Virus record (IMG/VR): IMGVR_UViG_3300025671_000441
Location: 1-26,192 of that record
Length of the DNA: 26,192 nt
Origin: a virus
Reading direction: 5' to 3' (one strand)
Shown here: positions 12,353-26,192 of the stretch, piece after piece
Layout of the letters: each line of letters opens with the position of its first letter
Numbering within the stretch: the stretch's first letter is position 1
Position numbers and translations under genes: made by a program
The notes under the pieces: model-generated
The model's input: only the letters and a program-made list of their open reading frames with translations
Told to the model about the DNA's origin: nothing
Database searches by the model: none

Positions 12353-13108
12353 GTGCCTGCGACCCCGTTCTCGTATCGCCAGTACCCGGGCAACGGGGCG
12401 ACTGTTGATTTCAGCGTCCCGTTCCCGTACCTACTAAAAGCTCACGTCAAGCTGTACATCGACTACAACATCGTCGACGGCACCTTTGACAGTGAGCTGG
12501 CCGAGGGGGCCGGCTTCAACTGGACCAGCGATGACCAGGTGCAATGCGCCACCGCGCCTGCGTCCGGTCAGACGCTGGCCGTCATCCGACTAACGCCCAA
12601 TCAAACGCGTCTGGTCGATTGGCAGGACGGCAGCAACCTGATCGCCGACGATCTCGATACCGCCGACCTGCAGAACCTCTACGTGGTTCAGGAACAGCAG
12701 GACCGCAACGATGCGGCGATCACCCAGTTCGGCGCCGACGCCACCGCGGCCGCGGCATCTGCCTCTGCTGCGCAAGCCGAAGCAGTGGCCGCTACAGCCG
12801 AAGCGGCATCAGCCACTGCCGCTTCCAACGCTGCAATCGCTGCAGCCAATGCAGTGACTACCACGGCCAACTCTGCATCGGCGGCAGCCAACGCAGCGGT
12901 GCAGATCGCCACGGCCGCGGCAGTGCCGCAGAGCCCAATCCAGGTGCTCGAGCCCTTGGAGATTCTTATCAACGCTGCCTTCAGTGTTGGCCGCCCTGGC
13001 GCCATCCCATTCGGGGTGGGCCCGGTGCTATCGCCGGGCGCTGCTTTCTCTGGCATCAGCCAGAGCGATTACTACCCCATCCACCACGCTTCAGGGAGCT
13101 TCTGCTGA
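12353..13108 (+). CDS. Short tail fibre protein with T7 gp17-type N-terminal domain
   Basis: 251 residues from GTG 12353, eight bases after the preceding stop. Residues ~3-125 match the T7 tail-fibre N-terminal attachment domain (FSYRQYPGNGATVDFSVPFPYL, an interrupted 'duplicate' of the gp17 start, then TPNQTRLVDWQDG and NLYVVQEQQDRN). Residues ~125-190 are an Ala/Thr/Ser-rich stalk, probably a trimeric coiled coil. The last 45 residues form a Pro/Gly module, GVGPVLSPGAAF...YYPIHHASGSFC, also found in the 88-residue protein two genes on. T7 gp17 has 553 residues with a large receptor-binding tip; here that tip is absent, so the protein probably serves as stalk or adaptor. Stop overlaps next start (TGATG). 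Confidence 0.88.
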   Translation: MPATPFSYRQYPGNGATVDFSVPFPYLLKAHVKLYIDYNIVDGTFDSELAEGAGFNWTSDDQVQCATAPASGQTLAVIRLTPNQTRLVDWQDGSNLIADDLDTADLQNLYVVQEQQDRNDAAITQFGADATAAAASASAAQAEAVAATAEAASATAASNAAIAAANAVTTTANSASAAANAAVQIATAAAVPQSPIQVLEPLEILINAAFSVGRPGAIPFGVGPVLSPGAAFSGISQSDYYPIHHASGSFC

Positions 13109-13113
13109 TGGCC
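13091..13113 (+). repeat. Direct repeat copy 1 at a gene junction
   Basis: A 23-base segment spans the last codons of the tail-fibre gene (SGSFC plus stop), its GGGAG-containing ribosome-binding site and the ATGGCC start of the next gene. It is identical to 13554-13576. It marks the DNA-level trace of the duplicated C-terminal module. Confidence 0.9.
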
Positions 13114-13302
13114 ACGCAACCTTATGGGAACAGCATCCCGGGATTTGCAATTCCCGAACATGACTATGTGTCGATGACCTACTCGGGGTCGAACTTGGCA
13201 ACCGTCACTTACAGAGCAGGCGGCGCTGGGGGCAATGTTGTCACCACGTTGTCGCTGACATACGACGCCAACAACAACGTCACCAGCATCACCAAGAGCT
13301 GA
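13108..13302 (+). CDS. Small structural protein, uncharacterised (64 aa)
   Basis: 64 residues from ATG 13108, which overlaps the fibre stop and follows a GGGAG site. The sequence is rich in Thr, Ser, Gly and Asn and alternates in a beta-strand pattern: DYVSMTYSGSNLATVTYRAGG, then TTLSLTYDANNNVTSITKS. Similar short beta-rich proteins are common near tail and neck genes in phages, but I cannot name a family with confidence. Its position between the fibre and the collagen-like protein suggests a virion or fibre-associated role. The next ATG follows after two bases. Confidence 0.7.
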   Translation: MATQPYGNSIPGFAIPEHDYVSMTYSGSNLATVTYRAGGAGGNVVTTLSLTYDANNNVTSITKS

Positions 13303-14022: not shown

Positions 14023-15561
14023 ATGACTGTCATCACCCCATTGCTCCGCGTTAAGGAGCGCATTGTTGGTCCCTCCGGGATCTTCAACATCGAAAACGAG
14101 TGGTACGGCTACCGCGATCAGTGGCGGTACACCGTGGGCCTGGCCGGCATGAGCGGCTTCGGCATCGGCTGCTGCCCGCCTGAACTACTGCCTGCCACCT
14201 TTGCTCCGCTGAGCGCCGGAACTTACGACCCGCTGCGCGAGCACCCTCACTTCGGCAACTACATCCATCTGCCGAGCGCTTCGATCGTGTGCTTCATCCC
14301 GGCGCACTACATCGACGTACAGGCACCCGGCAACACCAACGCGCCGTTCTATGGCACGAAGGTGGTGATCAGTGACACGCAAAGTGGCGATGCTCGTCTG
14401 CCTCAGGCCTTTACCGACTCAGGCTCAAGCCTGATCGGCGTGTTTGTGGACAAGTACCAGATCTCCAACGGCAAGCCCGATGGCTCTGGCTCCCCCAACC
14501 ACACCAGCGGCCCCGGCGGCACCCCGCTCACCGGCGGCATTGCAGTCTCCCGTCCTCTGCACTGGCCCGTCAGCCCTACCACCAAGGACAACGGCGGTAC
14601 CGACTTCAACAGTCCCTTCAGCCTGTGCAACAGCGCAGCCCTGAACAGTGCCGCTGGCACCCCCGCCGACAATCTCGGTGGCGTGTGGGCCCTGGTGAAG
14701 ACCCGCGGCGCGGACTTTGCTCCCTGCCCGCTGTGGATCCGCAGCCAGATCGCCTTCCTGTCGCTGGCCCATGCCCAGGCCCTGCTCGATGGCGGCGGTG
14801 CCCCAATCGCCGGTGCCACCACCAAGGCGGCCTGGATGGATGTGGCGCCCTATGCGCCCAAGGGCAACAACAACAACGGCAGCGACGTCAACAAGTCCAG
14901 CCTGCAGTTCGCCCGCACGGATCTGACCGGTCACAACGGCTCGGGCTATGCCGGTCGTAACAGTCGCGCTTTCACAGGCGCTGCGCGAATCAGCGGAGCT
15001 TCTGCTGTTGAGCACACCACGCACAACGGTCAGCTGAGCGGAATCGTGGACATTCAGGGCAACCAGTGGGAGTGCGCCCCTGGCCTGACCAACAGTGGCG
15101 GCGGCAACGGCGGTTTCCGCCTGTTCCCCAGCAGCGCAGCGTGGACCAACACCACGGGCAATGCCTCGATCACAGGCGCCACTGGCGTGCTGTCCCTGGC
15201 GGCTGAGAGCGGTGCTGCAGCGGATGACGGCATCTGGTTCGGCAGCGCCGGCTGGAGCTACCTAGTGCCCCACAGCGGCGGCACCTTCCACCCCTCCAGC
15301 AGCTTTGGTGATGCCACGCTGCGGGCGATGACGGAGACGTTGATCCCCCGGGAGCTGGGCACCAGCGGCACACAGACCAGCACCAACATCTTTGGTGGTG
15401 ACGGCGTGTACCGCTCTAGCCCCAACGACCTGCTGCCGCGTGTTGGGGGCTCCTGGGGCAGCACGGCCGATGCCGGTGTGTTCCTCGTGCTTCTCGGCAG
15501 CCCCTCCAGCCACGCGAACTACCTCTTTGGCGCGCGTGCCGTCCGCCTTCTGGCTGCGTGA
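14023..15561 (+). CDS. DGR target: variable tail adhesin with C-terminal C-type-lectin-like domain
   Basis: 512 residues. The C-terminal residues 470-509 are encoded by the variable repeat and follow the C-type-lectin pattern of DGR targets: PRVGGSWGSTADAGVF, then a variable stretch, then GARAVRLL. Fourteen residues differ from the template (473, 477, 479, 480, 483, 488, 490, 492, 493, 494, 497, 500, 501, 502), nearly all at template Asn codons. The conserved scaffold (GG-W, AGVF, GARAVRL) contains no changed residue. Residues ~45-95 (FGIGCCPPELLPATF, YDP, GNYIHLPSAS, CFIPAHY) resemble N-terminal parts of other phage tail proteins and weakly the fibre C-terminal module. Residues ~130-300 are Gly/Asn-rich. 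Analogous to Mtd of Bordetella phage BPP-1, it should be the receptor-binding protein at the fibre tip. Confidence 0.92.
   Translation: MTVITPLLRVKERIVGPSGIFNIENEWYGYRDQWRYTVGLAGMSGFGIGCCPPELLPATFAPLSAGTYDPLREHPHFGNYIHLPSASIVCFIPAHYIDVQAPGNTNAPFYGTKVVISDTQSGDARLPQAFTDSGSSLIGVFVDKYQISNGKPDGSGSPNHTSGPGGTPLTGGIAVSRPLHWPVSPTTKDNGGTDFNSPFSLCNSAALNSAAGTPADNLGGVWALVKTRGADFAPCPLWIRSQIAFLSLAHAQALLDGGGAPIAGATTKAAWMDVAPYAPKGNNNNGSDVNKSSLQFARTDLTGHNGSGYAGRNSRAFTGAARISGASAVEHTTHNGQLSGIVDIQGNQWECAPGLTNSGGGNGGFRLFPSSAAWTNTTGNASITGATGVLSLAAESGAAADDGIWFGSAGWSYLVPHSGGTFHPSSSFGDATLRAMTETLIPRELGTSGTQTSTNIFGGDGVYRSSPNDLLPRVGGSWGSTADAGVFLVLLGSPSSHANYLFGARAVRLLAA
15431..15550 (+). repeat. DGR variable repeat (VR)
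   Basis: 120 bp aligned without gaps to the template at 15971-16090. All 23 mismatches are at positions where the template has A; 9 of the 32 template adenines are unchanged, and none of the 88 non-adenine positions differs. The replaced adenines read as C nine times, G seven times and T seven times. Outside this interval, the alignment breaks down at once on both sides. This adenine-only pattern is the signature of DGR mutagenic retrohoming. Confidence 0.98.
15528..15550 (+). other. Putative IMH (initiation of mutagenic homing) at the 3' end of VR
   Basis: The last 23 bp of VR are GC-rich (TGGCGCGCGTGCCGTCC then GCCTTC) and match the template copy except for one A-to-C change at 15546, which is silent (Arg508). 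In Bordetella phage BPP-1 the GC-rich 3' end of VR is the site where target-primed cDNA synthesis starts and is where VR and TR copies differ slightly. The role here is by analogy. Confidence 0.7.
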
Positions 15562-15568
15562 GCAGCCA
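15551..15568 (+). promoter_or_regulatory. Hairpin 1 abutting VR; loop holds target stop and Avd start
   Basis: A perfect 7-bp inverted repeat, TGGCTGC-GTGA-GCAGCCA, begins at the base after VR. The four-base loop GTGA contains both the stop codon of the target gene (TGA 15559-15561) and the GTG that can start the Avd gene (15558). It may form a DNA cruciform for homing or an RNA hairpin affecting translational coupling. Confidence 0.7.
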
Positions 15569-15968
15569 TGTGGGGGAGGCGACAGCCTCCCCTTCTCCTC
15601 CAGAAGGACTGGACAAGCGGCAGGAGCGCTATTGGCTCATCGAGCGGCGCTGCAAGGACCTCTGCCTCTACCTCGACGTTCTCACAAGGAACATGCCGCG
15701 GTATGAGAAGTACGTCCTCAGCGCCAAGATGCGTGAGATCGGCTATCTCTGCTTGGAGTTGGCCATTGCCGCCAACAAGAAACAGCACAAGAAGACCGAT
15801 CTCACACGCTTCAATGTGCAGCACGAGTTTCTCCGCCAGCTACTCAACCTGGCAGTGGAGGCCAAGTACATCGAACCCAGACGACACCGCGTTGCCTGCG
15901 AGAAGCTCGATGAAGTGGGCAAGCTTCTAGGAGGCTGGCTACGCTCTGAACTCAGGGCGGACTCCTGA
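15558..15968 (+). CDS. avd: DGR accessory variability determinant (Avd-like four-helix bundle)
   Basis: 136 residues if GTG 15558 is used; this start overlaps the target stop as GTGA. A second GTG at 15570 is also possible, and the conserved part starts only near DKRQERYWLIERR (residue ~19), so the true start is uncertain. The product is basic and all-helical: a Cys/Leu helix, then MPRYEKYVLSAKMREIGYLCLELAI, then HEFLRQLLNLAVEAKYI, then a C-terminal amphipathic helix, in the manner of the Avd/S23-like four-helix bundle. Avd forms a basic pentamer that binds the RT and template RNA and is required for cDNA synthesis. Its place between VR and TR is the same as in BPP-1. No Shine-Dalgarno site is seen. 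Confidence 0.9.
   Translation: MSSHVGEATASPSPPEGLDKRQERYWLIERRCKDLCLYLDVLTRNMPRYEKYVLSAKMREIGYLCLELAIAANKKQHKKTDLTRFNVQHEFLRQLLNLAVEAKYIEPRRHRVACEKLDEVGKLLGGWLRSELRADS
15573..15592 (+). promoter_or_regulatory. Hairpin 2 downstream of VR with GRNA tetraloop
   Basis: A perfect 8-bp GC-rich stem with a GACA loop: GGGGAGGC-GACA-GCCTCCCC. Stem length and the G-purine-N-A loop fit the hairpin/cruciform that Bordetella-type phage DGRs carry just downstream of VR and need for efficient target recognition. It begins 22 bp after VR. It is followed by TTCTCCTCC, not a T run, so a terminator or attenuator role is possible but less favoured. Confidence 0.72.
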
Positions 15969-16224
15969 CATGCTGCCGAATGTTGGGGGCAACTGGGACA
16001 ACACGGCCAATGCCGGTGTGTTCAACGTGAATCTCAACAACACATCCAGCAACGCGAACAACAACAATGGCGCGCGTGCCGTCCGACTTCGACACAATCA
16101 CGCCCAGCGTTGGTTCTCACGGGAACCTTCCGTGCCGTGTTGAAGGGAGGGAGTTCGTCCTTGAGCCTTCGGGCTCTCAATAGCCGGGGACGGCGATTCC
16201 AGTAGCTCAAGCGACCGTCTCGCC
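15969..16224 (+). ncRNA. Template RNA region: TR plus structured spacer to the RT gene
   Basis: The 256-bp stretch between Avd and RT has no gene. It holds TR and then a 134-bp spacer with several possible hairpins: GGTTC/GAACC (16112-16127), overlapping CACGG/CCGTG (16118-16134, exclusive with the first), and GAGCC-TTCG-GGCTC (16163-16176, UUCG-type loop). In BPP-1 the spacer after TR is part of the RNA that RT and Avd bind and prime from. RNA boundaries cannot be read from sequence. No T run follows the hairpins, so they do not look like terminators. Confidence 0.75.
15971..16090 (+). repeat. DGR template repeat (TR)
   Basis: 120 bp, gap-free match to VR 540 bp upstream and in the same orientation. 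It would encode LLPNVGGNWDNTANAGVF and then an Asn-rich stretch, with 13 AAY (Asn) codons at the diversified positions; AAY codons give the widest amino-acid choice without stop codons when A is randomised. It starts two bases after the Avd stop and is not itself in a coding frame of a gene. Confidence 0.98.
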
Positions 16225-17289
16225 ATGCCCCACAAACTCGGCAACCTGTGGCCCCAGATCGCCAGCTATGACGCGCTGCTGGAGGCTTGGAGGGAAGTCA
16301 GAAGTGGCAAAGGAACCAAGCGGTTGATCCTCCAGTACGAGAGCAACCTGGCGGTCAACCTGTCTCACCTCGAGGCGAAGTTGCTGGACGGGCGCTACAA
16401 GCCGCGGCCGCACTATGAGTTCTGGATTAAGGATCCCAAGCCCCGGCTGATTCAGGCGCCTTTCCTGGAGGATCGCATCGTGCAACACGCCGTTTGCAAC
16501 GTACTGCGTGTGCCCCTGCAGGAGCGGTTGATCGCTCACACCTACAGCTGCCTGATTGGCCGCGGCACCCATCGCTGCAGCCAGCAGTTTCATGCCTATC
16601 TGAAGGATCGTCGGCTGAAGTATTACTTGAGTCTTGACATCCGCAAGTTCTTTTACAGCATCAACCATCAAGCGCTGTTTGCTGAGATGCAGAGGCACAT
16701 CAAGTGCAAGCGCACCCTGGAGCTGCTGTGGCGCTACATCACGGTCAACGGTGGGGACTGTGGCATCCCCATCGGTGCGAGCACCAGCCAGATCATGGCC
16801 AACATGGCACTCAACCCCCTCGATCACTTCGCCCGGCGGGAGCTGAAGCTCGACACCTACCTGCGCTACTGCGACGACATGATCGCTCTCTTCGAGACCG
16901 CGGAACAGGCGCACGTTGCGCACCGAGCAATGGATGAGAAGGTGCGCGAGCTGGGCATGGAGCTCAACAGCAAGAGCGGTGTGGGCTGGGTGGATGACGG
17001 CGTGGACTGGGTTGGCTATCGCCACTGGCGCACCTACAAGCTGATCCGCAAGCGCTCGCTGAAGCGCCTGAAACGGAAGGCCACTGGCTGCAGCCTGGAA
17101 ACGGCCATGGCCTACCTCAGCCATGCCAAGGACACGGCCAGCCTGCGGCATGTGGCCCGGCTGCTATGGCGCGGGAATCCTGAACACAGGCCGGAGATTT
17201 ATGCATGGCTTGGACAGCATCGGCCAGGCCGTTACTCTGCAGGGGTGGAACTCAGCCGCCAATGGAGCCAGCGTCGATCATTGCCCTAA
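16225..17289 (+). CDS. DGR reverse transcriptase
   Basis: 354 residues from ATG 16225. Conserved RT blocks are visible in order: RLIQAPFLEDRIVQHAV (residues ~74-90), LSLDIRKFFYSI (catalytic Asp138), IPIGASTSQIMANMALNPLDHF (residues 181-202), LRYCDDMIALF (catalytic Asp217 and Asp218), and GWVDDGVDWVGYRHW (~254-268). The GxxxSQ box (184-189) in place of the QGxxxSP seen in group II intron and retroviral enzymes is diagnostic of DGR RTs. The enzyme copies TR RNA into adenine-mutagenised cDNA that replaces VR. The catalytic residues appear intact. The gene's end overlaps the next gene by 28 bp. No strong ribosome-binding site precedes the start. Confidence 0.96.
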   Translation: MPHKLGNLWPQIASYDALLEAWREVRSGKGTKRLILQYESNLAVNLSHLEAKLLDGRYKPRPHYEFWIKDPKPRLIQAPFLEDRIVQHAVCNVLRVPLQERLIAHTYSCLIGRGTHRCSQQFHAYLKDRRLKYYLSLDIRKFFYSINHQALFAEMQRHIKCKRTLELLWRYITVNGGDCGIPIGASTSQIMANMALNPLDHFARRELKLDTYLRYCDDMIALFETAEQAHVAHRAMDEKVRELGMELNSKSGVGWVDDGVDWVGYRHWRTYKLIRKRSLKRLKRKATGCSLETAMAYLSHAKDTASLRHVARLLWRGNPEHRPEIYAWLGQHRPGRYSAGVELSRQWSQRRSLP

Positions 17290-17441
17290 TCGGCTTGAGC
17301 GGCTCTGGTGTAGCCGCGCTTTGGAAGATCGCCAACGGCCTGGGGCGATTCGAGTCGCGCACCACAACGATCCTCGAGGGCGTGCAGACAATGCTGCAGG
17401 ACCACGAAACCAGACTCCGAGAAATCGAGAGGCAAACGTGA
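17262..17441 (+). CDS. Small membrane protein with coiled-coil tail, possible lysis accessory
   Basis: 59 residues from ATG 17262, inside the end of the RT gene; an upstream in-frame start at 17205 would overlap it more deeply and is less likely. One hydrophobic segment (residues ~4-22, ASIIALIGLSGSGVAALWKIA) is followed by a charged helix (FESRTTTILEGVQTMLQDHETRLREIERQ). This layout resembles small phage lysis or XhlA/Rz-like accessory proteins. Its stop overlaps the next start (GTGA 17438-17441), supporting a coupled pair with the holin candidate. The name is tentative. Confidence 0.6.
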   Translation: MEPASIIALIGLSGSGVAALWKIANGLGRFESRTTTILEGVQTMLQDHETRLREIERQT

Positions 17442-17844: not shown

Positions 17845-18064
17845 CTGCCTGCTGTCTATCGGCAGCCTCAAGCGAGGCAATCCAGCTGTCAAACGCTTCC
17901 CGCGAAGGGATCTTGGCCGGCAGTTTCAGCCACCGCCTGGTTTCGATCGGGCAGCGAAGAAACACGCTGGCGCCCTTGGTGTACGCGATGAAGAATCGCC
18001 CGTTCCAGTCTCGGCCAGTTTCGATCGTCGTCCCTTGCCCAAGGTGCAGTCGCTCTCTTCTCAT
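17837..18064 (-). CDS. Small uncharacterised basic protein downstream of endolysin
   Basis: 75 residues from ATG at 18064, which overlaps the endolysin stop as ATGA, so the two are translated together. The N-terminal half looks beta-rich (HLGQGTTIETGRDWNGRFFIAYTKGASVFL) and the C-terminal half helical (SREAFDSWIASLEAADRQQ). There is no signal peptide or membrane segment. No family is recognised; a lysis or late function is suggested only by coupling. Its end overlaps the convergent plus-strand gene by 8 bp. Confidence 0.65.
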   Translation of the reverse strand: MRRERLHLGQGTTIETGRDWNGRFFIAYTKGASVFLRCPIETRRWLKLPAKIPSREAFDSWIASLEAADRQQAAT

Positions 18065-19242
18065 GGCTTACAGGTGAGATACCAACCGCCGGAGCCACCT
18101 GGCATCCAGCGCGGATTCCAGTTCTTGCGGCTGTAAACCATCCCAGCCCCCTTGGTGTTCTTGGTGTAGCCGCCCTGGACCAGCAGCGCCTCGCCGTTGG
18201 GGTCGTTGTGAATCCAGGCGGCATCGGTGTAGCCGATGATTACCGTCCAGTGACCGCCGCCTTTGGGCGCCGTGGCGGGCCCTTGATGCAGCCACCCGAC
18301 TGCCACTGGCCGGCCAGCGTCGACCTCGGCCTCCAGGGCCGCAGGGCCGCCATTGGTGTGGAAGTCGGCCTTGAGGCCGAGCTCCCGTAGCGCTGCCAGC
18401 TGGGCCTGAGCCGACGTGGTATCGCCAAAACGTGCGCGGATCTTGTTATAGGCATCGTCATTGGCGACCTTGCTCCAAAACATGGCCAACATCGCGCAGC
18501 TCGAGGAGAAACACTCCCTGTAACCCGCGCCACTTTTGTTATCGAGCTGGCTCTGCCATTCCACCTTCAGCAATGCGGCCTGTTTGGGCGCCGCAACCTG
18601 CTGCCCGCGCCATAACGCACCTTCCGCGCGGCGACGACGCAGCAATCCGGCCTCCACATTGGTGCCTGGGTTCCGATAAAGCTCCATGGCATCGGGCACC
18701 CCATCCCAGTCCCTCTCTTTCAGCTTCTTGGTGATGGTCGTGAAGCCGCTGGCACCAACGAAACCAGCGCCCAAGTTGTAAGCGAAGCTAATCAGTGCAG
18801 ACTGCTGGCCCCGATTAAGCCCCTGCCAGTGCGGCACGGTCTCGCTCAGGCTGCTTGCAATGCGATCCACCTCACGACTGAGCAGCTCCGCCGCATCAAC
18901 CACGGTGATCTTGTCTCCGCGCTGCACCTGGCGGCCGTCTGGGTAGCGGGTGGTCCCATAACCAATGGTTGCCACTGACCAGCCGTGCAATGGATCGGGG
19001 TAGGCGCTCAGATGGCAGCCCTCAAACGACTTGATCAGCTCAAGCGCAGCCCCGTAATCCGCCTTGCTGCCCCGCCAGTCATCCACCCACTCGGCTGATT
19101 CGCTGAGCAGCCCAGGATCCGCGGCCTTGATATGCCTTCCGAGCTTGATGACCGCATCTTTTTGATGCCGAAGCCCCTTGTAGTGCTCCCAAAACTGCAG
19201 CCACCGCTCATCAGTGAACTGCACATCCTGTATCGGCATCAT
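18061..19242 (-). CDS. Two-domain endolysin: GH24 lysozyme plus C39-like cysteine peptidase domain
   Basis: 393 residues from ATG 19242; this start has GGAGAG eight bases upstream, while the open frame extends a further 41 codons without support. Residues ~62-215 are a T4/lambdoid-type lysozyme: IKSFEGCHLSAYPDP has the catalytic Glu74 and Asp83, and VATIGYGTTRYPDG has Thr92; NRGQQSALISFAYNLGAG is the conserved follow-up helix. Residues ~235-393 look like a peptidase C39-like domain, with YRECFSSSCAML (Cys244), GGHWTVIIGY (His331) and HNDPNGEA (Asn346/Asp347). The first domain cuts glycan strands; the second may cut peptide cross-bridges or bind wall. No signal peptide is seen, so export would depend on a holin. 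Confidence 0.88.
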   Translation of the reverse strand: MMPIQDVQFTDERWLQFWEHYKGLRHQKDAVIKLGRHIKAADPGLLSESAEWVDDWRGSKADYGAALELIKSFEGCHLSAYPDPLHGWSVATIGYGTTRYPDGRQVQRGDKITVVDAAELLSREVDRIASSLSETVPHWQGLNRGQQSALISFAYNLGAGFVGASGFTTITKKLKERDWDGVPDAMELYRNPGTNVEAGLLRRRRAEGALWRGQQVAAPKQAALLKVEWQSQLDNKSGAGYRECFSSSCAMLAMFWSKVANDDAYNKIRARFGDTTSAQAQLAALRELGLKADFHTNGGPAALEAEVDAGRPVAVGWLHQGPATAPKGGGHWTVIIGYTDAAWIHNDPNGEALLVQGGYTKNTKGAGMVYSRKNWNPRWMPGGSGGWYLTCKP

Positions 19243-19268
19243 GGAGAAAGCTCTCCACCCATGTAACC

Positions 19269-19526
19269 GTGGCCAAGAACGATCTACGAGACATCCTGGA
19301 GGAGATCCATGCGGAAGTCGCCCATGGAATCCTTGATGACCTGCGCAATGGCGACAAGAACGCACGCCGCGAGGCCCTGCAGCTGCTGAAGCAGAACAGC
19401 ATCACGGCCGCGGCCATGCCTGATACGCCCACAGCAGACCTCGCCCGCATGGCCGGGAAGCTCAACTTTGCTGAGCTCGAGGACAAGGTGAAAGTAGTGC
19501 CGCTGCGGCCGCCTAGCGCCGCCTGA
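19269..19526 (+). CDS. Terminase small subunit (T7 gp18-like)
   Basis: 85 residues from GTG 19269 (T7 gp18 has 89). The pattern LRDILEEIHAEVAHGILDDLRNGDKNARREALQLLKQNSITA matches the helical N-terminal half of T7 gp18 (a LEMLDTAMAQRMLADL-type helix followed by a charged turn and a LLDRHKFQI-type helix). The small subunit recognises concatemer DNA and guides packaging by the large subunit. Oddly, it is the only plus-strand gene between two minus-strand genes: its start lies 26 bp from the divergent endolysin start and its end overlaps the convergent large-terminase gene by 14 bp. A GTG start and no clear Shine-Dalgarno site suggest weak or regulated expression. Confidence 0.78.
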   Translation: MAKNDLRDILEEIHAEVAHGILDDLRNGDKNARREALQLLKQNSITAAAMPDTPTADLARMAGKLNFAELEDKVKVVPLRPPSAA

Positions 19527-21285
19527 CACCGCCATAGGCAGCGCTACGCGCCATTGGACGGAACCCCAGGGCCAGCGCATCAACGCTGGCTCCCGTCTCA
19601 TCCATCCACGCCTGCCTGCTCCAGTCGTCAATTTCATCAGCGCGCTGCTGCTGAGCGCGCTGCTGGTCCTGGGCGGCGGCATCAACGAAGTAGCTGCAGC
19701 CGATCGCCAAGGCGTCGATGCGGTCGTAAAAGCTCAAGCAACCGCGATCAGCCGTGATGCGACTGAGCTGATACATTAACGAGCGCTGGTGGCCGGTATC
19801 GGGATCGCGCTCGGCTCCGGTCCAATCCTTCTGGATCAGCTCACTACTGAACACCAGCCTGTGCTGCTGGCTGAGTGGGCCTAGGACATCAACGATCCGC
19901 CGTTCCTTTTGCCCAGCACTGCGTGGCGCCTCCTCCACTGTGCAGGGCCACACGCGCGCAATTACGGGCTTGAGCAGTGAGGTGAACATGCCGTCGCCGT
20001 AGTTCGGTTCCGGAATGCAGGCATTGACCTTCCAGCGCTTGGCGACATTCGCCAGATGCACCAGCACCTCCTCCTCGTAGCCGCGGGTGGTGCCACCGCT
20101 CTCGAGCACAAACAGGTTGCCATTGAGCTCCGCCACCACAGCCCAGGCCAGCTCATCGCTACCGCGGCCGGACGGGTCAACCGCCAGCACGCACCGCCAT
20201 GTCTCCTCCTGTGGCACCCAGCCCTGGATCAACGCGGGCGAGTGGTAAAAGCGATCGGCGCCAAGGCCCACGCAGGGAATCGACTGGATTCGGTACTCCG
20301 TGCCGGAAGACCATGCCACCACTTCGGGCAGTGCCTTGCCATCGAGGGGCATCACGATCAGATCACCCAGTCGCACGGGGTAGCGATCCAAGGTCGACAG
20401 CCGGCAGTTCAGTTGAAACTGCAGCTGCACCGACGCCCTGGTCATCCGCATCTCGCGGTTCAGCAGCTCTTCGTGGCCAAAACGCTCAGGATCGGTCGGC
20501 GTACCCACTAGAGACGGGTCTTCCTCCACCTCGGCGGCCATGACCGGGTCGATATGCCCCTCATAGCAATCCCACTGGTCCGCATCGGTGGGGTCCGGGT
20601 AGCGCGCCGGCCAGTAGCGGATCGAATAATTGCGCTCACGCACCAGCCGCAGGTACAGCGACGTCTCCAGGTGAGGCGTACCCAGGAACTGAATCATCCG
20701 CGGCAGCTCCTGGCCCTCGTCCGGCTTGAGGATCGCCTCCAATTCGGTCACGGCCGCGGCCAAGCGCTCCTGTTTCAGCGGCGTGATCGAGTTGTTCAGG
20801 GTCTCGATGTCATCCGGGATGGCGATTGTGCAGCGTTTTCCGGTCAGGGACGGCGACAGGATGCCAACTGCCCTGACGCTCGGGCTTTGATCCACAACGG
20901 CAGGGCCCACGTCAAACGCCCTGGTACTACTGCGGCCGTCATTTCTTGGCTCCAGGCACCGAAGGATGTCAATGTCGCGGATGCAGCGCGCCATGAACGT
21001 GGTGATCTCCAGCGCTTTCTCTGCTGTCGATCCCGGGATTAGCACCTTCTCGTTGAACGGATCAATCCGCAGCCGATGCAACGCCCTAGCAGCGGCAATC
21101 GTGCTCTTTGCTACACCACGAAATCCCACCGTGATCTGACGGGATGGACCGTTTTCCTGCCAGTCGCAAATCCTTAGCTGCTGCTTGGTCGGCATCTCCG
21201 CCAACCTGAGCTCTCGCAGGATGTAGCAGAAGAAATATGGGAACCGTCCAATGCCTAGCTCCGGTGGAATTGGCGTCCAGCTCAT
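19513..21285 (-). CDS. Terminase large subunit (T7 gp19-like ATPase/nuclease)
   Basis: 590 residues from ATG 21285 (T7 gp19 has 586); this start has GGAGGGG upstream, while the open frame could extend 15 codons. The ATPase half has a Walker A-like GFRGVAKST (residues ~54-62) and Walker B/coupling segment TIAIPDDIETLNN. The nuclease half has CVLAVDPSGRGSDELAW (first catalytic Asp), LFVLESGGTTRGYEE, and FYDRIDALAIGCSYF (late catalytic Asp in the DR-DALA box). The protein pumps DNA into the prohead and cuts concatemers. It is transcribed opposite to all virion genes in the window and opposite to the small subunit. The start codon lies next to a 10-bp hairpin. Confidence 0.93.
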   Translation of the reverse strand: MSWTPIPPELGIGRFPYFFCYILRELRLAEMPTKQQLRICDWQENGPSRQITVGFRGVAKSTIAAARALHRLRIDPFNEKVLIPGSTAEKALEITTFMARCIRDIDILRCLEPRNDGRSSTRAFDVGPAVVDQSPSVRAVGILSPSLTGKRCTIAIPDDIETLNNSITPLKQERLAAAVTELEAILKPDEGQELPRMIQFLGTPHLETSLYLRLVRERNYSIRYWPARYPDPTDADQWDCYEGHIDPVMAAEVEEDPSLVGTPTDPERFGHEELLNREMRMTRASVQLQFQLNCRLSTLDRYPVRLGDLIVMPLDGKALPEVVAWSSGTEYRIQSIPCVGLGADRFYHSPALIQGWVPQEETWRCVLAVDPSGRGSDELAWAVVAELNGNLFVLESGGTTRGYEEEVLVHLANVAKRWKVNACIPEPNYGDGMFTSLLKPVIARVWPCTVEEAPRSAGQKERRIVDVLGPLSQQHRLVFSSELIQKDWTGAERDPDTGHQRSLMYQLSRITADRGCLSFYDRIDALAIGCSYFVDAAAQDQQRAQQQRADEIDDWSRQAWMDETGASVDALALGFRPMARSAAYGGVRRR

Positions 21286-21287
21286 GA

Positions 21288-21324
21288 GGAGACCCCTCCC
21301 GCCGGAAAGGCAGAAGGGGTCTCC
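21288..21324 (-). promoter_or_regulatory. Inverted repeat covering the large-terminase leader
   Basis: A 10-bp perfect inverted repeat (21288-21297 with 21315-21324; core GGAGACCCC/GGGGTCTCC) with a 17-base loop. On the minus strand its 3' arm ends two bases before the terminase ATG and contains the GGGG of the likely ribosome-binding site, so folding would hide the site. It could be a translational switch; a terminator is unlikely because no T run follows on either strand. Confidence 0.6.
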
Positions 21325-21341
21325 GACCAACCACCGCCACC
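21325..21341 (+). repeat. GACCAACCACC motif, orphan copy
   Basis: GACCAACCACCGCCACC directly follows the terminase-leader inverted repeat. It matches the leader motif found before four plus-strand genes on the right but no plus-strand gene follows within ~600 bp. It may be a remnant or have a function other than translation. Confidence 0.55.
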
Positions 21342-25459: not shown

Positions 25460-26192
25460 ATGGCAGTCCGCAAGATCGCGGGCGGATGGATCGCCGACGT
25501 GACTGTCGACGGCGTCCGCCGCACCCGTAAGACCAAGACCAAGGCCGAGGCGCTCGAAAGGCACAAAGAACTCCTCGAGCAGGTCGCAGCCCGGCCAGCC
25601 AGTAACCGCAGCAGCGGCCCCGGCATCACCATCAAGGAGGCGCGAGAGCTCTCGATGCGCATCAGGTGGAAAGGCCTGGCCTGGGAGCGCACCGCGTCGA
25701 TCTACAGCCAGCACGCGATCGACTTCTTCGGTGCCTCTGTTCAGCTGGGCTCCCTGGGCGCGCCTGAGATCGAGCGCTGGCGGCAATACCTCCTCGAGAC
25801 CGGCAATCAGCCCACCACCGTCAACAAAAAAGTGAGCTGCCTGCGGGCCATGCTCGACGATGCGGCCCTGCACGGCTACATCGAGCACATCCCGCCAATC
25901 CCCAAACAGCTCAAGGTCCACAACACCAAGGACCGGGTGATTTCAAAGCGAGAGCTCGAGGCGATGTGCCACGTCCTGCGGGAGCTGGGTGAACCCGAGT
26001 TCGCCGACATGCTGGTGTTTCTCACCCTCACCTGCGCGCGCTGGTCTGAAGTGGAGCGGCTGCGCGGTGAGGACGTCGACCTCGAGCGGGGGCTGATCAC
26101 GTTCTGGAAGACCAAAAACGGCAGCCCCCGCACCATCGCCCTGGGCCCCAAGGCCCGGAGCATCATTGAGCCCTATGTGCCGGCCGTGCCCC
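25460..26192 (+). CDS. int: Tyrosine-recombinase integrase, N-terminal 244 residues (runs off the window)
   Basis: The frame is open from ATG 25460 to the window edge. Residues ~1-45 look like an arm-binding AP2-like domain (GGWIADVTVDGVRRTRKTKTKAEALERHKELLEQ). Residues ~55-145 are the SAM-like core-binding domain (IYSQHAIDFF, PTTVNKKVSCLRAMLDDAALHGYI). The catalytic domain starts near 158: LVFLTLTCARWSEVERLRGEDVDL holds catalytic Arg194, and ITFWKTKNGSPRTIAL holds the beta-hairpin Lys219. The H-x-x-R and Tyr boxes lie beyond the edge. It would recombine attP and attB; an att site is probably near but is not identified here. Confidence 0.92.
   Translation, partial: MAVRKIAGGWIADVTVDGVRRTRKTKTKAEALERHKELLEQVAARPASNRSSGPGITIKEARELSMRIRWKGLAWERTASIYSQHAIDFFGASVQLGSLGAPEIERWRQYLLETGNQPTTVNKKVSCLRAMLDDAALHGYIEHIPPIPKQLKVHNTKDRVISKRELEAMCHVLRELGEPEFADMLVFLTLTCARWSEVERLRGEDVDLERGLITFWKTKNGSPRTIALGPKARSIIEPYVPAVP

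Follow-up and report, generated by a model that had tools for sequence, protein, structure and literature searches.

The diversity-generating retroelement (DGR) of phage BPP-1 consists, in this order, of the target gene mtd, avd, a template repeat (TR) and brt, which encodes the reverse transcriptase (RT). For phage DGRs, the available text of PMC3240598 describes a target hairpin with a GC-rich stem of 7-10 bp and a GRNA loop, located 4-34 bp from the variable repeat (VR), and reports five differences in BPP-1 between the initiation of mutagenic homing (IMH) sequence and its counterpart IMH*. In a prophage DGR of Thermus aquaticus, the variable protein TaqVP (PDB 5vf4) has a lectin fold, according to the accessible part of PMC6328139. 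Here, we analysed the IMG/VR virus record IMGVR_UViG_3300025671_000441 over its 26,192 bases (referred to as the window), which carries a target gene, avd, TR and an RT gene at positions 14023-17289, all on the + strand and in the BPP-1 order. We conclude that these elements almost certainly form a complete and working BPP-1-type DGR in a temperate phage of the T7-like type, whose hosts are probably picocyanobacteria.

Results

The TR/VR pair and the genes of the cassette

The cassette is composed of the following elements:

14023..15561, + strand: target (variable protein) gene, 512 aa, with a putative lectin-like C-terminal domain
15427..15550, + strand: VR, the ungapped 124-bp partner of TR; its diversified part ends at 15545
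15528..15550, + strand: IMH-like 3' end of VR, with an A-free, GC-rich stretch at 15528-15545 (18 bases) and then a fixed C at 15546
15551..15568, + strand: HP1, a 7-bp hairpin (TGGCTGC-GTGA-GCAGCCA) directly after VR; its loop consists of the avd start codon GTG and the overlapping target stop codon TGA
15558..15968, + strand: avd, 136 aa
15573..15592, + strand: HP2, an 8-bp GC-rich hairpin with a GACA loop, 22 nt after VR; the usual GRNA-loop DGR target hairpin
15967..16090, + strand: TR
16091..16224, + strand: conserved non-coding spacer between TR and RT
16225..17289, + strand: DGR RT, 354 aa

In the ungapped 124-bp alignment, VR differs from TR at 24 of the 34 TR adenines and at none of the 90 other bases (hypergeometric p 5e-18). 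The adenines are replaced by C in ten, by G in seven and by T in seven cases, and a repeat finder returned the identical pair. An initial annotation, made from the letters of this DNA alone, had given the same coordinates and gene order, and its counts hold for the 120 bp that it aligned (VR 15431-15550 versus TR 15971-16090; 23 of 32 adenines, 0 of 88 other bases); however, the A-only run begins four bases earlier. It had also attributed all adenine mismatches to mutagenesis, which stands for 23 of the 33 adenines in the mutagenised part, but not for the last one. That is, VR position 15546 (facing TR 16086) is C in the VRs of 12 out of 12 phages whose own TRs have A, and thus marks a fixed IMH/IMH* difference rather than mutagenesis. 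With this single fixed difference and its GC-rich 3' end, VR carries a putative IMH. The sister record L002 (41,394 bases) represents the same phage, with one mismatch in 19,968 shared bases and an identical VR, and across stretches covering this 41-kb record no further VR for the window's TR was found beyond the one in the window.

The RT matches PF00078, and its best PDB match is 8ub7 (E 3.6e-51), the matched sequence being the BPP-1 brt product. The catalytic residues Asp138, Asp217 and Asp218 and the GxxxSQ box, described as intact in the initial annotation, are indeed invariant, the latter as GASTSQ, in 11 of 11 aligned RTs. Comparison with phage records gave 148 matches, all below 60% identity and with Pseudomonas phage Bise (36%) as the best-covered one, while a search of genome contigs with the RT gave no match. 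The C-termini of the RTs differ among the aligned relatives, and in the window a small open reading frame (ORF) at 17262-17441, which shares the frame of ORF 17205-17441 and whose start was judged by eye, begins inside the RT 3' end with an overlap of 28 bases. Avd matches PF22296 and the PHROG family 'Avd protein of DGR', and has no sequence match in PDB.

The spacer that follows TR is strongly conserved among relatives. A tentative consensus structure predicted for TR together with the spacer contains 72 pairs, 14 of which show at least one compensatory change; the covariation term is small (-2.37 kcal/mol). The spacer is probably part of the DGR RNA. No sigma-70-type promoter was matched around the cassette, an Rfam scan gave no match at gathering thresholds and a tRNA search found none.

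VRs of related phages diverge at template adenines

Relatives were gathered by five IMG/VR scans, using the RT, Avd, the target (twice) and a TR-derived pattern, and VR was compared with TR in 20 loci, among them the window and some more distant loci. For a pooled count over fixed columns -112 to -1 from the IMH position, we used 12 phages, among them the window phage, whose VR and TR are both complete. Excluded were L008, which is cut by the contig end, L015 and L059 because of gaps, the mosaic L034 and the more distant L060, L081, L083 and L086. Among these 12 phages, 229 of 366 template-A cells were changed as compared to 1 of 978 non-A cells, the latter residing in L009. All 20 loci together gave 400 of 631 for A and 18 of 1766 for non-A cells (10 of the 18 in L034), in a count whose scoring favoured A mismatches and included the fixed IMH column.

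The VRs also follow their own templates. At 29 columns with non-A differences between TRs, each VR carries the base of its own TR in all cells counted, in runs that were bounded by A-only matching so that the L009 exception fell outside. L006, L017 and L020 have a 107-bp TR core in common, and their VRs differ at 16-23 of 31 A columns and at none of the 76 others. Starting at the avd end, L058 and L059 match without a difference over at least 400 nt, TR included; within their shared 3.4-kb stretch, 31 differences (gap columns counted) fall within VR as compared to 5 in the 3238 positions outside, and farther out the two are 97.7% and 90.5% identical. Identical or near-identical TRs accompanied by different VRs, together with VRs that track the non-A changes of their own TRs, argue for an active DGR. 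The recent activity proposed in the initial annotation thus gains support from the relatives, whose divergence is what repeated mutagenic homing would predict.

VR length also varies within an AAC tract, always in frame: as compared to TR, L015 and L058 have gained 3 nt and L059 9 nt, and the extra codons of L058 and L059 are all NNC. We considered these length changes as something new and rejected this, since indels within AAC repeats, with slippage in multiples of three, are already covered in the available text of PMC12875486.

The C-terminal domain of the target resembles TaqVP

TR contains 18 A-bearing codons, 13 of them AAY and none able to become a stop, and the product of the reachable residues amounts to ~1.5e18. 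Neither the target sequence alone nor its 12-row profile had a PDB match; only a wider profile of 35 C-terminal domains gave one, to TaqVP (E 3.9e-5). An AlphaFold2 model of target residues 213-512, built with 38 sequences (pLDDT 61, pTM 0.67), aligned to TaqVP with a VIA-align Z of 11.4 over 217 residues. Among the 12 chains compared by VIA-align, the Mtd variants of BPP-1 matched weakly (Z 4.6-5.0) and the non-DGR protein CalU17 reached 4.2; as the former hardly exceed the latter, TaqVP alone counts as a clear fold match. Foldseek likewise ranked TaqVP first, at E 1.6e-3, and returned nothing at E 0.001 or better. Pfam gave no family for the whole target or for the window's C-terminal domain; HEPN_SAV_6107 matched 6 of the 35 C-terminal domain members (best E 0.00039), and the PHROG families matched by the target are of unknown function. 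Thus, the lectin fold predicted in the initial annotation is supported with moderate confidence through TaqVP, and the C-terminal domain may, with the same confidence, provide a lectin-like surface. From this fold and the analogy to Mtd, it is reasonable to infer that the target is a host-binding tail protein.

Two hairpins follow VR

HP2 fits the published pattern of phage DGR target hairpins, and HP1 precedes it directly at the VR end. Both are perfectly paired in all 18 close records that contain avd, among them the window; in L011, L015 and L071 the HP1 loop contains ATG instead of GTG as avd start. Covariation was assessed in 22 rows (16 distinct sequences), five of which (L061, L062, L071, L074 and L088) derive from records without full RT. 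Here, 99.2% of the hairpin cells pair, 24 cells are changed on both sides as compared to a mean of 7.5 after shuffling, and the covariation score is 0.306, as compared to 0.090 after shuffling and no more than 0.068 with slid partners. None of 500 shuffles reached the observed value in any of these three measures. The other two of the five shuffle measures are unexceptional: the five pairs changed on both sides were reached in 153 and the seven further pair types in 177 of 500 shuffles. HP2 shows compensatory changes. HP1 has two pairs with double changes and occurs in three stem types, so that as few as two double-change steps may have occurred; covariation of this kind cannot separate DNA from RNA structure.

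Seventeen records that have no RT beside the target were searched for RT; 16 are without any and L062 contains only a C-terminal remnant. HP1 is perfect in seven of them (L061, L062, L071, L074, L088, L090 and L095), of which the L071 contig stops inside avd and L088 and L090 are identical across the hairpin stretch. The GRNA-loop hairpin is perfect in six of these seven, L095 being the exception, and in none of the other ten, in the stretch searched. We also inspected 10 other phage DGRs for hairpins with at least 6 perfect pairs and loops of 3-6 nt in the 110 nt after VR. A perfect GRNA-loop hairpin was present in 8 of 10, with no second hairpin ahead of it in any of the eight, and the BalMu-1 and Versailles DGRs have no such hairpin whatever in these 110 nt. 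Elsewhere in the window, ORF 12544-13302 contains a hairpin at 13020-13039 that resembles a DGR target hairpin, with a GATA loop on the - strand and a GC-rich stem, and may be due to chance.

Relatives with altered cassettes

Several relatives carry broken or rearranged cassettes. In L062 (3629-3928), a deletion, possibly an assembly error, joins the first 40 avd codons in frame to RT codon 276; TR is gone, and the target, VR and both hairpins are kept. In L061 (5242-6200), avd has a stop after codon 57 and the record contains no RT; the subsequent ORF is presumably an intein-bearing gene, as it reads like one. L074 (3311-3400) retains the target, both hairpins and 22 avd codons followed by a stop, in a 4.9-kb record without RT. 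In L060 (1-1143), two avd genes flank a VR-like repeat, and TR and RT follow; the second avd is 46% identical to that of the window. The VR-like repeat differs from TR at 18 of 31 template adenines and at 1 of 92 other positions, and the arrangement is either a recombinant or an assembly chimera. L096 (6004-9191) and L097 (4388-7578) each carry a tandem pair of target homologues in records without RT.

Diversification of DGR-less relatives in trans was tried as an explanation by comparing 16 VRs with the TRs of relatives, and found no real support. Two VRs were set aside, namely L057, whose contig ends in avd (0 of 89 non-A mismatches to the window's TR, with a 3-nt gap), and L034, which has its own TR (9 of 89 non-A at best). 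The other 14, among them L071 with its contig cut inside avd, differ from the nearest TR at 2 to 22 non-A positions, and only L080 comes close (2 of 96 versus the TR of L083). Relatives that lost avd, TR or RT and kept the target make the costs and benefits of hypermutation comparable within one phage group.

Phage type and host

Three further genes in the window characterize the phage:

18061..19365, - strand: endolysin (phage lysozyme plus C39-like peptidase)
19513..21330, - strand: T7-type terminase large subunit
25460..26192, + strand: tyrosine integrase gene, first 244 codons, cut by the window edge

The terminase and endolysin genes lie on the strand opposite to the block of virion-protein genes. 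The window's right edge truncates the integrase gene, which is complete in L002 (330 aa), and all five records tested carry an integrase. These findings suggest a temperate phage, as initially assumed. L002 also encodes a portal, a 5'-3' exonuclease, a single-stranded DNA-binding protein, a T7-type RNA polymerase, nozzle, tail and gp10-like capsid proteins; the polymerase and nozzle genes lie outside the window. The T7-like assignment is borne out by the RNA polymerase, terminase, nozzle and gp10-like capsid.

Among 2,534 phage records matched by the terminase, two fall at 60-80% identity, and one of these is Synechococcus phage S-SRP02, at 69%. Four terminase relatives were found in bacterial assemblies, in two Cyanobium contigs (69% and 54%), a Sphingomonadaceae metagenome-assembled genome (MAG; 79%) and Mesorhizobium loti (38%), and MAG contigs of this kind may be misbinned. 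In the stretches searched around these four, no homologue of avd, RT or the target was found; one of the Cyanobium assemblies contains, on other contigs, two RT-like matches. From these similarities, picocyanobacteria are the likely host.

Discussion

Our data directly support the anatomy of the cassette, the A-only differences and a family-wide, homing-like divergence, as well as, with moderate confidence, the fold of the target. RT, Avd, the TR/VR pair, the IMH mark, the GRNA-loop hairpin and the lectin-like target domain are all present, in agreement with the complete DGR proposed initially. In the mechanism that we envisage, a transcript over avd, TR and RT would supply the template RNA, which Avd and RT would copy with errors at template adenines. 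The resulting cDNA would then overwrite VR, which forms the 3' end of the target gene; the replacement would begin within the GC-rich IMH stretch beside the hairpins, and by analogy to BPP-1 the A/C difference between 16086 and 15546 may keep the transfer one-way. As an outcome, a lectin-like surface with 18 A-bearing codons would be diversified, presumably for host attachment.

However, several points weigh against a working DGR of this type. The only near-identical copy of the window phage, L002, has the same VR, and the window phage provides no within-population evidence. Relatives exist that kept the target with no RT in the record. In L034 (5540-6224), VR and TR have 10 of 86 non-A mismatches, all mid-repeat, and apparently represent a mosaic of two lineages. 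Finally, the confidence of the target model is only moderate, and an earlier model of the whole target with 12 sequences was unusable (pLDDT 27). The VR shared with L002 and the relatives that lost avd, TR or RT yet kept the target (L061, L062 and L074) would also fit a DGR that is intact in sequence but inactive in the window's lineage, VR being the frozen product of earlier homing. This is very unlikely, given that no non-A difference has accumulated at the 90 positions of the window's VR/TR pair, that the RT catalytic residues are intact and that the window's TR and VR share one non-A change, at column -15, relative to L006, L017 and L020. This joint change suggests either rewriting of VR after these lineages had separated or sharing of the change by homing. 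An ordinary duplication followed by A-directed damage or editing, without any DGR, would equally confine mismatches to A, but it is hardly conceivable when A goes to C, G and T (10, 7 and 7) and RT, Avd, the IMH mark and the GRNA-loop hairpin all accompany the repeats.

Given a working DGR, the target could be displayed for a purpose other than host attachment, e.g. on the surface of the lysogen. Neither position nor homology fixes its place in the virion, the matched PHROG families being uninformative; its gene nevertheless follows a block of large virion-type genes, like Mtd in BPP-1, and we consider another kind of display improbable. As to HP1, chances are even that it serves solely in translational coupling between target and avd and has no part in homing. 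Its loop coincides exactly with the overlapping stop and start codons (GTGA or ATGA), and the distant DGR-bearing relatives L081, L083 and L086, which have no such overlap, are also without HP1 yet keep A-only VR/TR pairs. The absence of HP1 where the overlap is missing favours coupling. On the other hand, HP1 adjoins the VR end, where target-site structure matters in BPP-1 according to the available text of PMC3240598, and two records without RT, L090 and L095, have it intact. A two-hairpin target site, in which HP1 is selected, aids target recognition and, as RNA, couples the synthesis of Avd to target translation, is a tentative and rather unlikely proposal; if true, the mutator dose would follow expression of the very gene that is being diversified.

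Taken together, a phage DGR can be placed in temperate T7-like phages resembling S-SRP02, with 20 loci containing VR and TR, some of them more distant, and the sister records appear to display DGR mutagenesis at work in nature. S-SRP02 and the uncultured phage MedDCM-OCT-S38-C3 (Stopalavirus) belong to the same kind of phage, as their terminases are 69% and 64% identical and they share the T7-type RNA polymerase, integrase, portal and nozzle with the window phage. Using tblastn, no homologue of avd, RT or the target was found in these two records, and the terms 'diversity-generating' and 'reverse transcriptase' are absent from the available text of the S-SRP02 paper (PMC8790148). The literature matches listed contain no DGR report for this phage group; the supplements of surveys such as PMC8144416, accessible in part, may hold these contigs. 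For the target, TaqVP is the closest solved match to the C-terminal 300 residues, at 16% identity, and the window protein has 212 more N-terminal residues, which lie outside the model. BPP-1 has the same gene order, with TR 556 bp downstream of VR as compared to 540 bp here, and shares the A-only differences, a GRNA-loop hairpin after VR and an RT that is the best PDB match. It belongs to a different phage lineage, the window RT is 36% identical over 68% of its length, and no HP1-like hairpin was found between its VR and its GAAA-loop hairpin. Thus, the window cassette is a phage DGR of the ordinary kind, in a group of phages that has none among the literature matches listed, and HP1 is its unusual extra feature, which represents a simple and testable addition to the known anatomy of DGR target sites.

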